This document shows, in pieces, positions 12,301 to 28,975 of a stretch of DNA of 64,000 nucleotides. The notes under the pieces are model-generated. The model did no database searches, had not been told where the DNA came from, and was given only the letters and a program-made list of their open reading frames with translations. Origin of the DNA: Chthoniobacterales bacterium (GTDB lineage Bacteria > Verrucomicrobiota > Verrucomicrobiia > Chthoniobacterales > UBA10450); the NCBI GenBank assembly GCA_003244145.1, contig QHBM01000156.1:1-64000 (forward strand), read 5' to 3'. Numbering within the stretch: the first letter of the stretch is position 1; each line of letters opens with the position of its first letter. Position numbers and translations under genes: made by a program.

Positions 12301-13014
12301 ATGGAAAACCCAGCCGACGAATCCAAGCAATCGCAGGAGGCCGAAAAAAAAGCGGCGAGCGAGCTGAACAATTTACTGGAGATCATCTCCGGAACGAGTG
12401 CGGCCATCGAAAATATCTGGGCAGGAAATGACGGCTCGGAAAAATATTTCGGGATGCTGCGCACCAGCGTCGATCGCGCCGCGAAAGTGACGGCGCAACT
12501 AGTAGAGCACGCCGGCGGCACCGACAAGAAAGTCCTCTTTCATCCCGAGCTGGTCGAGCTGGCGCGCCCCCGAAAGGCCGCGCCACCGGCCCCCCAAAAG
12601 AAACGCCGGCTTCTGGTGGTCGATGACGAACCGATGGCTCTCGTCCTGGCCAAACGCATTCTTTCCGAGGAGGGATTCGAAGTCGCCACCGCCCAGTCCG
12701 GTTTCGAATGTCTGGATTTTGTCCGAAAACGGCCGCGTCATTTCGATCTCGTTCTGCTCGATCTGTCGATGCCTTTCATGGATGGCGAAGAGACCTTCGG
12801 CCGCCTTCGCGCCATTAACCCGGAGATCGTCGTGCTCCTCAGCACCGGCTTCATCGCGCAAGAACGGCTCGATCGGATGCTCGCGGCCGGCATGGCGGGA
12901 TTCCTCCGGAAACCGCACCGCCCCGACGAATTGGTGGCCCATCTGCGCTCCGTTCTGGCGAGCGTGAAAATGTCCCGTGCCGGTTGTCTCGTGAACACGC
13001 TTGCCACTTCCTGA
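12301..13014 (+). CDS. Response regulator (C-terminal receiver domain)
   Basis: RRLLVVDDEPMALVLAKRIL, VLLDLSMPFMDG, GFLRKPHRPDEL. Confidence 0.82.
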   Translation: MENPADESKQSQEAEKKAASELNNLLEIISGTSAAIENIWAGNDGSEKYFGMLRTSVDRAAKVTAQLVEHAGGTDKKVLFHPELVELARPRKAAPPAPQKKRRLLVVDDEPMALVLAKRILSEEGFEVATAQSGFECLDFVRKRPRHFDLVLLDLSMPFMDGEETFGRLRAINPEIVVLLSTGFIAQERLDRMLAAGMAGFLRKPHRPDELVAHLRSVLASVKMSRAGCLVNTLATS

Positions 13015-13025
13015 TCGCCCCCATC

Positions 13026-14153
13026 ATGAATAGTTCTCTCGCCCAGGCCTTCGACCAGCTCTCGCAGAACCGGCTCTTCGAAGGAATCGAATCCGATTTG
13101 CTGAACGAAATCGCGCCCGATGTGCACGCCGTGCAGTTGAACGCGGGCGACATTATTTTCCGCGAAGGGGATCCGGGAGACGTGATGTATCTCGTCGGGA
13201 AAGGTTCGGTTAAAATTTCCAAGTCCGGACGCGGCGGGCAACAGGAAACGCTGGGCTTCATTCAATCGGGAAACTTCTTCGGCGAAATGGCGTTGCTCGA
13301 TGGCGAGCCGCGCTCCGCCATGGCGACTGCGGCCGAACCAACGCTTCTCGGCACCGTGGACGAGCCGACCTTCCAGCACATTCTCGAGCTCGCGCCCAGC
13401 CGCTTGCACATGAACTTTTTGCGCTCGGTTTCGGAACGGCTGCGCAGCGTTAATTCCCATTTCATCTCTGAAGTCATGCGGACCGAACGGCTGAGCCTCG
13501 TCGGCGCGATGGCCAATTCCATTATTCATGATCTAAAAAATCCGATCTGCATCATCCGGTGCTGCACGGATTTGATCGCGGGTGAAAGCACTGATCCTCG
13601 CGTACGCGAGCTGACAACAATGGCCGACAAAGCGGTGAATGGAATGCTTTCGATGACGCAGGAACTGCTCGACTACGCGCGCGGCTCGACCTCGCTCACG
13701 TGCGAAACCGTTTCGATCTGGCGTTTGCTCGATGAATTAAACCAGCAATCGCTCCGCCTGCTCCCCGGCCACAATATTCAGTTTGCAAAAAATATTCGGT
13801 ACGACGGGAGCCTGACGGTCGATCTGCCCCGGTTCATTCGGGTCTTGGCCAACCTGATCAAAAACGCGCGGGAAGCGATGCCGAGCGGCGGTATCCTGAC
13901 CATCAGCACCGACCTGGTGAACGAAGAGGTCGTCATCCGCATCTCGGATACCGGCGTCGGAATTCCCGCGGATATTTTGCCCAAACTTTTCGAACCTTTC
14001 GTGACGCACGGCAAATCGCACGGCACTGGTCTCGGCATGGCGATCGCGAAGTCCGTCATCATCGCGCACCAGGGAAAAATCTCTGTCTCGAGCGTGGAAG
14101 GAAGCGGGACCACGGTCGATATTCGACTGCCCGCGCCGGCCGCGGCCAGCTAG
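13026..14153 (+). CDS. Cyclic-nucleotide-binding-domain histidine kinase
   Basis: cNMP-binding core (GDIIFREGDPGDVMYLVGKGSVKI, FFGEMALLDGEPRSA), HisKA (SIIHDLKNPI) and HATPase (NLIKNAREAM, DTGVGIP, GTGLGMAIAK). Confidence 0.85.
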   Translation: MNSSLAQAFDQLSQNRLFEGIESDLLNEIAPDVHAVQLNAGDIIFREGDPGDVMYLVGKGSVKISKSGRGGQQETLGFIQSGNFFGEMALLDGEPRSAMATAAEPTLLGTVDEPTFQHILELAPSRLHMNFLRSVSERLRSVNSHFISEVMRTERLSLVGAMANSIIHDLKNPICIIRCCTDLIAGESTDPRVRELTTMADKAVNGMLSMTQELLDYARGSTSLTCETVSIWRLLDELNQQSLRLLPGHNIQFAKNIRYDGSLTVDLPRFIRVLANLIKNAREAMPSGGILTISTDLVNEEVVIRISDTGVGIPADILPKLFEPFVTHGKSHGTGLGMAIAKSVIIAHQGKISVSSVEGSGTTVDIRLPAPAAAS

Positions 14154-20644: not shown

Positions 20645-21463
20645 ATGAAAACGAAATTCGTCGCTCTCCTCTCCGCTTTCGGTCTGATCTGCTCTTCCAC
20701 CGCGGTGCACGCCGAGCGCCTCGTCATCAAGGGGTCGGATACGCTCGGGGCAAAGCTGGTCCCGCAATTAGCCGAGCAATTCAAAACGCAACAGCCCGAT
20801 GCCACGTTCGATATCGCAGCGGAGGGATCGACCACCGGTTTTGCGGCGTTGATCGACAGCACCGCGCAGATCGGCATGGCCAGCAGGCCCGCGAAGCCTG
20901 AAGAGATCGCGGCGGCAAAAGCGAAAAACGTGACGTTGAAAGTGACGATCGTTGCTTATGACGGCGTGGCCGTGATCGTGAACGCGGCGAACCCGATCAA
21001 GAATCTGACCAAGAAACAGGTCGAACAAATCTTCACCGGCGAAGTCGCTGATTGGAGCGCGGTGGGCGGTTCCGGCGGTGCGATCTCGATCTACACCCGC
21101 AACACTTCTTCCGGGACCTACTCGGAGTTCAAAGAGCTCGCGATGAAAAAACGCGATTACGCGCCTTCCGCGCAGAAGATGGCCGGCAACGAACAAATCG
21201 CAGCGGAAGTAGGAAAGAATCCGAACGGGGTCGGCTACGTCGGGCTCGCTTACACCAAGGCGCAAGGCATCAAGATTGTCTCGATCGATGGCGCGATGCC
21301 ATCAGTCGATAGCGTGCAAAAGAAAAGCTATCCCTATGCGCGGCCGACTTTTTTTTATACGAATGGCGAACCGGCCGGCCTGGTGAAAGCATTCGTTGAT
21401 TTCACCGTGGGCCCGGTGGGCCAGAAGATTGTGGGCGAGGCGGGGTTTGTTCCGATTAAGTAA
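20645..21463 (+). CDS. pstS: Phosphate-binding protein PstS (copy 1)
   Basis: Signal peptide, SDTLGAKLVPQLAEQF, FTGEVADWSAVGGSGG, NTSSGTYSEFKE. Confidence 0.92.
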   Translation: MKTKFVALLSAFGLICSSTAVHAERLVIKGSDTLGAKLVPQLAEQFKTQQPDATFDIAAEGSTTGFAALIDSTAQIGMASRPAKPEEIAAAKAKNVTLKVTIVAYDGVAVIVNAANPIKNLTKKQVEQIFTGEVADWSAVGGSGGAISIYTRNTSSGTYSEFKELAMKKRDYAPSAQKMAGNEQIAAEVGKNPNGVGYVGLAYTKAQGIKIVSIDGAMPSVDSVQKKSYPYARPTFFYTNGEPAGLVKAFVDFTVGPVGQKIVGEAGFVPIK

Positions 21464-21487: not shown

Positions 21488-21613
21488 GTGAAATCCAACG
21501 TACTTTTCATCTGCGTTCATAACAACGCCCGCAGCCAGATGGCGGAAGCGTGGCTCAATCACATCTGCGGCGATATCCGCGCGAAAATCGAGCAGAGGTG
21601 CGCCGAGGTTTGA
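21488..21613 (+). pseudogene. Internally deleted arsenate reductase (arsC) relic, 41 codons
   Basis: [48 protein letters not shown]-terminus matches [20 protein letters not shown] and C-terminus matches [16 protein letters not shown] of the intact ArsC at 26511-26966; middle absent. Confidence 0.75.
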
Positions 21614-24920: not shown

Positions 24921-24966
24921 GAAAAACGAAAACCCCCGCCGGATTTTATCCAGCGGGGGCTCGTTT
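24921..24966 (-). terminator. Strong intrinsic terminator, probably bidirectional
   Basis: CCCCCGC-C-GGAT/TTT/ATCC-A-GCGGGGG stem-loop followed on the minus strand by TTTTCGTTTTT. Confidence 0.85.
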
Positions 24967-24981
24967 AACTATCAGCCGCGC

Positions 24982-25110
24982 TTACTTCGCGCAGCAGGGT
25001 AATTTGACCAGGCAGCAACCGCCACCGCCGCAGCAATCAGCCGAACGCGAAGTCGCGTTCGCTGTGCCGACCAGCGCGAGAGCTGCCACGATCATCAATA
25101 GGTATTTCAT
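24982..25110 (-). CDS. 42-aa Cys-rich secreted peptide, not in the ORF track
   Basis: MKYLLMIVAALALVGTANATSRSADCCGGGGCCLVKLPCCAK*; AGGAGG Shine-Dalgarno just upstream; signal-peptide-like N-terminus; ends just before the terminator. Confidence 0.75.
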   Translation of the reverse strand: MKYLLMIVAALALVGTANATSRSADCCGGGGCCLVKLPCCAK

Positions 25111-25137
25111 AGAATCCTCCTGTTGAATTTCCTTCTC

Positions 25138-25159
25138 CTCGTTCGCCGCGGCGAACGAG
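25138..25159. repeat. Perfect 22-bp palindrome CTCGTTCGCCGCGGCGAACGAG
   Basis: Exact self-complementarity over 22 nt in a 67-bp intergenic gap. Confidence 0.8.
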
Positions 25160-25177: not shown

Positions 25178-25594
25178 TCAGGCGCGCGGCGGTGGAACAG
25201 GAGGCTGATCCAGACGCGAAGAGAGATCAGCCGAAGCGATTGAAAAAGTTTCGCCATGGCCGGATGGAAAAAGCCAGGGTGCCTTAGGCGTAAGGAACAG
25301 AGCTAATGCGAGAGCGCAGGCCTGGCAACATTGGCGGTCTTGTGTTTTTCCCAGCGGCGCGCGGTCATCGTGTTTCGGGCCGTGCTGAGATTCCTTCACG
25401 CAGCAACTCATCTCTTCTCTTGTCTGCGACGCTACGCCTTGCGCCGGCAGCGTGATCGAGACGATCGAACACGAAAGGGCGATCACGAAGAGTACGCGCG
25501 AGAATGCCGTAACCACGAAAGGATCATAGTGGTTTGGTTGGAAGACATCAAGGCTTGTGGCCCCGTTCAGTTCACATCTTTCACGCAACGCCAA
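25178..25594 (-). CDS. Small membrane/secreted Cys- and His-containing protein
   Basis: Hydrophobic N-terminal region then SCCVKESQHGPKHDD...QCCQACALALALFL; collinear with ars genes; start uncertain. Confidence 0.55.
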   Translation of the reverse strand: MALRERCELNGATSLDVFQPNHYDPFVVTAFSRVLFVIALSCSIVSITLPAQGVASQTREEMSCCVKESQHGPKHDDRAPLGKTQDRQCCQACALALALFLTPKAPWLFPSGHGETFSIASADLSSRLDQPPVPPPRA

Positions 25595-25641: not shown

Positions 25642-26514
25642 TTATGTAGAGATCTCCGCAGTCTCCCTCGCCGAGCAACAGCCTGACTCTCGCACGCACC
25701 TGCAACCGATGACGCCGACCGCTGCGCCAACGATCGGTCCAGCAAGATAAATCCAGAGACTGGCGAGCTGGCCCGAAACAAGCGCAGGCCCGAGCGAACG
25801 AGCAGGATTCATGGACGCGCCGCAGATTGGGCCGGCGAACATGGCTTCGAGTGCGATAACCGAACCTACCACGATGCCCGCGGTGATTCCCTTCTCGCGG
25901 GCGCCGGTCGATACGCCAAGAATGACGAACATTAACAGGGCCGCAAGCAGCAACTCGAGGATGAATGACTGCAGCTCCGTTCCCGCGGGTCGAGTCGCGC
26001 CGAGCAGACGGCTTTCCGGAAAGAGAAGGCGCATGACGCCACTTGCGGCCAGCGCGCCGGCGCATTGGCTCGCGATGTAAGGCAACACTTCGCGGCCATC
26101 CATTCGCCGCGAGAGCCAAAAGCCGATCGTGATCGCGGGGTTGATGTGCGCGCCGGAGATATCGCCGAGCGTGTAAATCATCACCAGGACGACGAGTCCG
26201 AAAGTCATCGCGATGCCGACATGCGTGATCGCACCGCGGCTCACTTCATTGATAACGATGGCTCCCGTCCCCGCAAACACGAGAGCGAAGGTGCCGATGA
26301 ATTCAGCAGCGTATTTTTTCCGGTTCATATTCGGGTTCCTGCCTGTTTGGAAGGTCAGCCGGCTACCGGCCACCAGCAGCATCGTGATTACGAGTGAGCC
26401 GATGCTCCAGTAATTCACTCCGGTGTTGAAGTACAAGCCGAGGGTAACCAGCGCCATCGTCATCTGCGCGATTCCAACGACCATGCGGAAACCCGCGTGA
26501 AGCTCCGCTTTCAT
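25642..26514 (-). CDS. MIP-family aquaporin/aquaglyceroporin with N-terminal 2-TM extension and Cys-rich tail (arsenite channel candidate)
   Basis: Two NPA motifs ([25 protein letters not shown]); ATGA overlap with the arsC stop; C-terminus [20 protein letters not shown]. Confidence 0.85.
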
Positions 26515-26966
26515 TCTGGCATCAAGGAAGTTTGAGGAACGCAAACCGCCTCGCACCACTCTTGGACCTTTTGTCGTATCTCATCGCGAATTTTCCTCAC
26601 TTCCTGAAGCTTTTCCTCATGGGTGCCGGTCACCTGCGAAGGATCGGGAAAAGGCCAGTGGAGCCGCGTGGTTATACCAGCAAAGATCGGGCAGCCTTTC
26701 GCCTCCCCTTCACTGCAGACGGTGATCACATATTGGAACAGCTTCCCCGTCCTCCAGACATCGAAGACTGCCTGGGTCTTATTCTGCGAGAGATCGATGC
26801 CCACTTCCTTCATTATCTCAACGACCAGCGGATTGATCGTCCCCGGTTCCAAGCCCGCACTGTGCGCCTCGAAATCATCCGGACACGAATAGTTGAGCCA
26901 GGCCTCGGCCATCTGGCTTCGCGCGCTGTTATGAACGCAGATGAACAAGACTCTTTGCTTTGCCAT
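26511..26966 (-). CDS. arsC: Arsenate reductase, LMW-PTP-like ArsC family
   Basis: [16 protein letters not shown] (CX5R loop), [24 protein letters not shown]. Confidence 0.92.
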
Positions 26967-27339
26967 ATCGTCTCCGGTCGCGAGCGGATTTGTGAAAAGC
27001 TGTCCTCGGCTCGCAACAATTTTTCTGGATCGTAGCCAACTTTTTAAGGTCGCGGGCGAAGACCGTGTCCGATTGCACGCAATCCTGAAGACATTTCAGA
27101 TTCATTTCGAGCTCAGGCGCGCGCTTCCGCGACAGCGAATAAGTCATCCAGTTTTGATCGCGCTCCACGTTCACCATCCCCCGCTCGCGAAGGTAAGCGA
27201 GATGCTTCGAAATTTTTACCTGCGGCTCGCCCAGGATCGTCTGGAAATGGCAGACGCACAGAGGCGATTGCGCAAGCAGGTTGAGAATCCGCAACCGTGT
27301 CCGGTCGCAGAAGCATTGGTAGATTTGAACCAGATCCAT
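26929..27339 (-). CDS. arsR: ArsR-family transcriptional repressor
   Basis: [45 protein letters not shown]; CxC metalloid-binding motif LCVC. Confidence 0.92.
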
Positions 27340-28162: not shown

Positions 28163-28975
28163 TTACGGAATTGGAACGAAGCCGACTTGCGCGGCGATCT
28201 TCTGGCCGGCGGCGCTGATGGTGAAATCGAGGAATTGTTTCGCGAGTCCGGTCGGCTCGCCGTTGGTGTAGTAGAAGGTCGGACGCGCATAAGGATAGGT
28301 CTTGGCGTGCACGGTTTGGACGGAAGGCAGACCGCCGTCGATCGACATTACCTTGATCCCGCCAGCCTTGGTATAAGCGAGACCGACGTAACCAACTCCA
28401 TTAGGATTTTTTCCTACTTCGGACGCGATCTGCTCGTTGCCGGCCATCTTCTGCGAGCCGCCCGCGTAATCGCGCTTCTTCATCGCCAACTCCTTGAAAT
28501 CGGAGTAGGTGCCGGAGGAAGTGTTACGGGTGTAGATCGAAATCTTTCCGCCCGACCCGCCGACCGCGCTCCAATCCGAGACCTCGCCGGTGAAGATTTG
28601 TTCGACCTGCTTCTTGGTCAGGCTCTTGATCGGATTCGCGGAGTTAAAGATGACCGCGATGCCGTCGTAAGCGACGATCGTCGGTTTCATGTGCACGCCT
28701 TTGGCGGAAGCCGCGCCGACTTCCGCCGGTTTGGCCCGCCGGCTCGACATACCGATTTGCGCTGTGCCATCGATAATGGCGGCGATGCCGGTGGTGGAAC
28801 CTTCGGCCGCGATGTCGAAGGTGGTGCCGGGATGCTGCGCTTTAAATTGCTCCGCGAGCTGCGGCACGAGTTTCGCGCCGAGCGTGTCGGAGCCTTTGAT
28901 GACCAGTTTTTCGGCGCGCGCCTGTGTGCTGACCAGAGCGAGTCCGAGTGCTAATGCGAGATGAGTGATTTTCAT
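28163..28975 (-). CDS. pstS: Phosphate-binding protein PstS (copy 2)
   Basis: Close paralogue of 20645-21463 along its whole length. Confidence 0.92.
   Translation of the reverse strand: MKITHLALALGLALVSTQARAEKLVIKGSDTLGAKLVPQLAEQFKAQHPGTTFDIAAEGSTTGIAAIIDGTAQIGMSSRRAKPAEVGAASAKGVHMKPTIVAYDGIAVIFNSANPIKSLTKKQVEQIFTGEVSDWSAVGGSGGKISIYTRNTSSGTYSDFKELAMKKRDYAGGSQKMAGNEQIASEVGKNPNGVGYVGLAYTKAGGIKVMSIDGGLPSVQTVHAKTYPYARPTFYYTNGEPTGLAKQFLDFTISAAGQKIAAQVGFVPIP

Follow-up and report, generated by a model that had tools for sequence, protein, structure and literature searches.

Does the very short open reading frame on the minus strand at positions 24982–25110 of the DNA analyzed here (the window, a stretch of 64,000 nucleotides that sits in a 3.6-Mb MAG) encode a protein, and if so, what would a secreted peptide of 42 residues with six cysteines do and how would its synthesis be controlled? 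A preliminary description had regarded it as a free-standing gene for a secreted micropeptide that might bind a metal or metalloid.

Conservation, selection and anatomy of the micropeptide

The 42-codon frame is a real gene that selection maintains within a family of Verrucomicrobia from soil. It had been placed at the right coordinates, its translation is MKYLLMIVAALALVGTANATSRSADCCGGGGCCLVKLPCCAK followed by a stop codon, and it is kept in relatives: an intact paralog (77% identity) is located on contig C2 of the window's own genome, and each of the other seven members of the genus has a copy with 76–93% identity (eight of eight genomes with that of the window). The profile search of related MAGs that the preliminary description had suggested detected the peptide in 37 of the 83 family genomes and in 20 of the 30 that are of good quality; among 385 sampled genomes of the class, matches were confined to the family. 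Named relatives are MAGs of Spartobacteria, Chthoniobacterales and Verrucomicrobia, several of them with 'palsa' isolate names. Scans of Pfam and NCBIfam with the peptide gave no match, PDB searches returned chance matches only and no relative, and nothing in Rfam came close to the gathering score.

Selection was assessed on nine copies from the genus, one of which is the paralog. Over the whole peptide, pooled pN was 0.15 and pS 0.38. At the six cysteine columns pN dropped to 0.03 (pS 0.22), compared with a pN of 0.28 for the other mature residues and 0.09 for the signal region; purifying selection on the cysteine codons is strong. Frameshifts or stops in close relatives and a lack of selection on these codons had been named beforehand as signs against a functional peptide, and this check did not refute the gene; a single decayed copy (L128) belongs to another genus.

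The consensus of the family is MKYLLMIxAALALVGTAxATSRSADCCxGGxCCxxxxxCCAK. In the window, the predicted signal peptide MKYLLMIVAALALVGTANA (25054–25110) would be cleaved after ANA, as had been proposed, and the site fits the A-x-A found at positions 17–19 of most copies, A-x-A being a normal signal peptidase site. The remaining mature region TSRSADCCGGGGCCLVKLPCCAK (24985–25053) of about 23 residues holds the six cysteines as three vicinal pairs. The AGGAGG noted previously is located 5 nt before the peptide ATG, within a ribosome-binding site, AACAGGAGG (25116–25124), that is conserved in the alignment of the spacer. On the other side, the strong intrinsic terminator is confirmed as a 15-pair stem-loop (24930–24962), with a similar stem behind other copies, although its distance from the stop codon is about 19 nt, not 16. 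The product is thus probably an exported, cysteine-paired peptide and a candidate for metal or metalloid binding. This reading fits because of the selection on cysteines, the A-x-A motif and the metal-related neighbors described below; of the original proposal, the predicted export and the cysteine pairs of the peptide stand, metal binding itself we infer, and the free-standing character of the gene does not hold.

A CutF-like leader precedes the peptide gene

Immediately upstream, the preliminary description had missed a leader ORF related in design to CutF, along with a covarying hairpin and an inverted repeat formed by the Shine-Dalgarno (SD) sequence and an anti-SD; together these elements carry the best clue to function. 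In the window the leader (25178–25516, minus strand; profile E 9.7e-35) comprises 112 amino acids, ends with QPPVPPPRA 67 nt upstream of the peptide, and presumably starts at a GTG, as judged from the alignment. In 32 of 35 distinct copies, the peptide is preceded on the same strand, at a distance of 56–96 nt, by an ORF of about 110 codons. A C-terminal PPPR-type motif was required for calling these 32 leaders, and a leader profile search performed without this rule recovered the same loci. As to the other three, L040 is cut by a contig end, L050 has no such ORF, and L132 possesses a degenerate leader. Within the family, profile searches with leader and with peptide matched largely the same genomes, and each of the two intact copies that the window's genome carries is preceded by a leader.

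The leaders have a hydrophobic N-terminus (by inspection), a CC pair early in the mature part followed by CCxxC, and a C-terminal RPPVPPPR with one or four more residues behind it. The CCxxC, which contains CxxC as well as CxxxC, is found in most of them; in a few, only CxxC is left or the motif is altered. With respect to the rules for CutF-like leaders given in PMC9973294, to which we added a spacing criterion of our own derived from PMC8456105, the deduced proteins appear to fit in most points. Their length is about 95–120 amino acids, varying with the start chosen (the rule asks for fewer than 150 and an N-terminal Sec signal); a PP motif lies at most 15 residues from the C-terminus in 32 of 32, the PPPR-type motif being the calling criterion; and a same-strand gene follows within 1000 nt, the gaps being those 56–96 nt. 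The last cysteine is separated from PPPR by 40 residues (37 to PPV and three more to PPPR) in 24 of the 29 measurable copies, by 39 in two and by 58–59 in three. In CutF, residues C69XXH72C73 and P109EPEGPPPRL118 likewise leave 40 residues between the last cysteine and PPPR (PMC8456105). Thirteen of 22 leaders match DUF2946 (PF11162) weakly; the window leader scores 18.6 bits (E 0.0032) and falls outside formal membership because this is below the Pfam gathering score of 23.7 bits, a score that was exceeded in none of 39 genomes.

A promoter-like site, TTGATG-17-TATGAT (25523–25551, minus strand), recognized by its match to the consensus only, precedes the leader. It ends 6 nt before the presumed GTG, so that a near-leaderless mRNA would result. 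Some copies of the locus are altered. At L132 (1818–1940) the peptide is kept next to ArsR, ArsC-like and ArsP genes and its leader has lost the cysteines and PPPR, as if control had been handed over to the ars system. Locus L128 (G100:C92, about 12958–13450), from another genus in which the pair is mostly absent, is a decaying copy with leader and peptide both apparently frameshifted. A 5'-truncated relic consisting of GGGCLVKLPCCAK and the terminator is present in the window's own genome (G000 C168:18336–18374; L003, L035).

RNA elements linking leader and peptide

The spacer between the two genes contains a hairpin, CTCGTTCGCCGCGGCGAACGAG (25138–25159, minus strand; inverted repeat I2), which is supported by covariation. 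Across the alignment 83.8% of the cells are paired, and 38 of them are compensatory compared with 11.6 ± 4.5 in shuffles, none of 500 of which reached this value; slid versions of the hairpin pair in only 41–48%. Masking of the SD by the hairpin itself was considered and rejected, as the hairpin lies upstream and the SD outside it.

A second element is embedded in the leader. Its PPV codons, which form part of the arrest motif, read CCTCCTGTT (25196–25204, minus strand; a synonymous recoding of this anti-SD would be CCGCCGGTG) and are in the window the exact complement of AACAGGAGG, yielding a perfect inverted repeat of 9 nt. Both the minimum-energy and the centroid fold of the window pair SD and anti-SD around the hairpin (z −2.8), and none of 300 synonymous recodings gave a duplex as good. 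For the family, the duplex between leader end and ribosome-binding site has a mean of −10.1 kcal/mol versus −8.4 kcal/mol for synonymous recodings (z −4.7). Taken one by one, only 6 of 32 copies show significant pairing, and shuffled SD/anti-SD partners attained the mean of the true partners in 11 of 300 cases, p-values for pairing and covariation alike being optimistic because the tests ignore phylogeny. Codon choice is biased at the same place: the valine of the motif is encoded by GTT in 20 of 28 cases versus 67 of 214 at other valines of the same leaders, and the first two prolines by CCT in 18 of 61 versus 18 of 246 at other prolines. One genus includes members in which the complement resides instead in a C-terminal extension, ATTCTCCT. 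In a simple folding model, removal of the leader end did not raise the mean openness of the SD (0.24 to 0.25). Taken together, the anti-SD is well supported in the window and suggestive across the family; its action as a switch is unproved.

Genomic neighborhood

The leader–peptide pair is located at differing genomic sites. A mobile element had been considered as an explanation and was dropped: wider synteny is common to several loci (L038 and L043; L044, L045, L047, L051, L053 and L054, with L034 sharing flanks further out), and therefore ordinary rearrangement can explain the scatter. In the window, the pair is preceded on the same strand by a MIP aquaporin-like gene (25642–26559; PF00230 in the tally of near ORFs), a gene for a low-molecular-weight phosphatase or ArsC-like protein (26511–26966; PF01451) and an ArsR-like regulator gene (26929–27339; named from its sequence). 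ArsR and MIP genes are likewise close to the cassettes at L052 and L132, and an ArsC-like gene is found at two of these three loci. ArsP is encoded at L132; at L058 and L129, genes for ArsP-like permeases lie no more than about 3.5 kb away. Other neighbors are a CDF efflux protein (L038, L043, L052), CopA- and Cus-like genes (L036) and an RND pump (L037), those of the last two loci being named from sequence alone. A protein of about 500 amino acids with a heavy-metal binding domain (HMBD) is encoded directly downstream in nine loci, which are not independent because several of them fall into a single syntenic group. Among near ORFs, HMBD ranks first of all families, and it is absent among the far-ORF families listed; the far-ORF control also includes two E1-E2 ATPases. 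This distribution points to arsenic as one among several metal contexts, and the type of leader would favor copper more.

Several further observations concern these regions. In the HMBD proteins (L045:7798–9315 and eight homologs) the domain is N-terminal and no other Pfam domain is present. A neighbor at L127 and L131 turned out to be the gamma/tau subunit of DNA polymerase III, which is unrelated to metals. The ars-type cluster of the window is flanked by genes for PstS-like phosphate-binding proteins (20645–21463, plus strand; 28163–28975, minus strand), and a truncated second arsenate-reductase-like ORF (21488–21613, plus strand) overlaps an ORF of 277 amino acids.

A model for metal-responsive translation

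CutF of Rhodobacter capsulatus, encoded by the first gene of cutFOG, acts as a nascent copper sensor, and copper raises the amount of the downstream product (PMC9973294). We consider it rather probable that leader and peptide form a two-gene cassette for metal response, with the peptide as its effector, and that an arrest leader of this type controls translation of a secreted, metallothionein-like micropeptide. According to this model, the nascent chain of the leader would be exported by Sec, and its CCxxC would sense a thiophilic metal, most likely Cu(I). The C-terminal PPVPPPR would slow or stall the ribosome, and metal would delay export of the nascent chain. As long as the mRNA is at rest, the PPV codons would pair with the ribosome-binding site of the peptide across the hairpin and keep translation of the peptide poor. 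A ribosome held at PPPR would cover the anti-SD, the ribosome-binding site would be freed, and the peptide would be made and exported; its three cysteine pairs could then chelate metal outside the cytoplasm. These bacteria may thus possess a very small sponge for metal, with metal itself directly controlling its translation. Both genes, their linkage, the covariation of the hairpin, the codon bias at the anti-SD and the selection on cysteines are established here; stalling, the identity of the metal, its binding and the direction of control we infer. Points that speak against the model are the unchanged SD openness in the folding model, the small number of copies with significant pairing, the DUF2946 scores below the gathering score, the degenerate leader at L132 and the E1-E2 ATPases among far ORFs.

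Leaders of this kind are known, and the present one represents a new branch of them. It shares with CutF a small, presumably exported ORF, CxxxC, the C-terminal PPPR, the 40-residue spacing, a short intergenic region with a stem-loop, and a product downstream that is probably exported and metal-related. It differs from CutF in its extra cysteine pairs and its verrucomicrobial host, in preceding a cysteine peptide of 42 residues where CutF precedes a multicopper oxidase, and in carrying the anti-SD in its own PPV codons and not in an intergenic stem-loop. The open-access papers searched contained no earlier description of this peptide, of a cysteine micropeptide behind a CutF-like leader or of an anti-SD placed in arrest codons, and this class of effector behind a CutF-type leader appears to be new.

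The main rival is a model with opposite logic, modeled on CruR (bp2923; DUF2946) of Bordetella pertussis, a leader with an RAPP motif, a spacing of 45 residues and a rut region, whose downstream product is lowered by copper (PMC9426467). The leader would stall when metal is absent and thereby block Rho-dependent termination, metal would switch the peptide off, and the peptide would serve to scavenge or carry metal and be produced when metal is short. Like CruR, the leader is encoded by the first gene of a putative metal operon, is presumably exported and ends with a proline-rich arrest motif, and its CCxxC contains the CxxC of CruR. Near the leader end C exceeds G (mean +0.12 in the 30 nt before the stop, below zero in the 30 nt after it), which resembles the rut region of CruR (PMC9426467) but may merely mirror the proline codons. 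CruR is nevertheless the less close model because of its RAPP and its 45 residues between the motifs, as compared with RPPVPPPR and 37–40 here; the PPPR ending and spacing match CutF. A short spacer with covarying hairpin and anti-SD replaces the 162 nt of CruR, the downstream gene is another one, and the neighbors look like functions in efflux and detoxification. We regard the opposite logic as unlikely.

Less probable still, at roughly one chance in ten, is that the leader protein is itself the working product, for instance a metal chaperone with the peptide as partner or substrate, and that the hairpin only stabilizes or punctuates the mRNA. The cysteine motif and the C-terminal motif of the leader are indeed both conserved, and a hairpin devoid of an SD is a usual intercistronic element. 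Against it, PPPR at the C-terminus at a fixed distance from the cysteines is a hallmark of arrest leaders (PMC9973294, PMC8456105), a bias at the level of PPV codons is unneeded for protein function, and CutF itself was undetected in cells (PMC9973294).

The peptide might also be a disulfide-bonded secreted effector with an antimicrobial or signaling role in place of a metal ligand. Its small size, export and cysteine content, and the variable residues between conserved cysteines would suit this role, which we nonetheless judge improbable in view of the vicinal arrangement of the cysteines, the metal-related neighbors, the leader of a metal-sensor type in front and the fact that no immunity or export genes were recognized nearby. 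With bacterial metallothioneins (SmtA/BmtA/PmtA, MymT) the peptide shares very small size, richness in cysteine and presumed metal binding; it differs from them by a signal peptide, a mature part of only about 23 residues in CC pairs and a translational leader, and did not match the described metallothionein families in Pfam and NCBIfam.

Bufferins and methanobactin precursors are exported, cysteine-containing small peptides linked to copper. An MNIO-modified metallophore (RiPP) of this kind would accord with an exported cysteine peptide behind a copper-type leader, but it is very improbable and was rejected, as no family match was obtained and the MNIO enzyme (PF05114) is absent from the window's genome and from four other peptide-carrying members of the genus.

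Recurrence of leaders in front of dissimilar peptides

In other families of the order, more distant leaders precede other secreted cysteine-rich micropeptides, with lengths of 47 (L120) and 43 amino acids (L126) or longer (L119). At L125 and L139 the leader is followed by a peptide with 8–9 cysteines that is dissimilar to that of the window. Of the 15 genomes of one genus, 12 carry this second family, and a CutF-like leader is located ahead of it in 12 of 12 copies (L156 being read by eye). Four or more types of peptide were thus seen behind such leaders in the order. It is tempting to speculate, and we see about even chances for it, that secreted cysteine-rich micropeptides form a class of several dissimilar families below the usual ORF cut-offs, placed under CutF-type sensors whose arrest codons include an anti-SD, for the branch of the window at least, and that they constitute self-contained sensor-to-chelator cassettes in this order and perhaps in other bacteria that have CutF-like leaders.

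Thousands of CutF-like leaders are known through the named proteins encoded after them, and surveys of annotated genes would tend to overlook tiny chelators in that position. One candidate chelator that is conserved, selected and linked to a leader, together with the recurrence of dissimilar peptides behind leaders of this kind, suggests that minimal metallothionein-like peptides are made by bacteria for secretion and that metal controls them directly at the ribosome. Uncultured soil Verrucomicrobia would thereby gain an additional function. The cassette lends itself to constructs in which the cysteines, PPPR and the anti-SD can be tested.

Products of another size also occur behind such leaders. 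In family f6, the leader is followed by a protein of about 316–370 amino acids that resembles outer membrane proteins; at L121–L124, leaders of the form HPCAMCK ... RPPLLPPRVA precede an exported protein of this length which starts with CDxCxCD.
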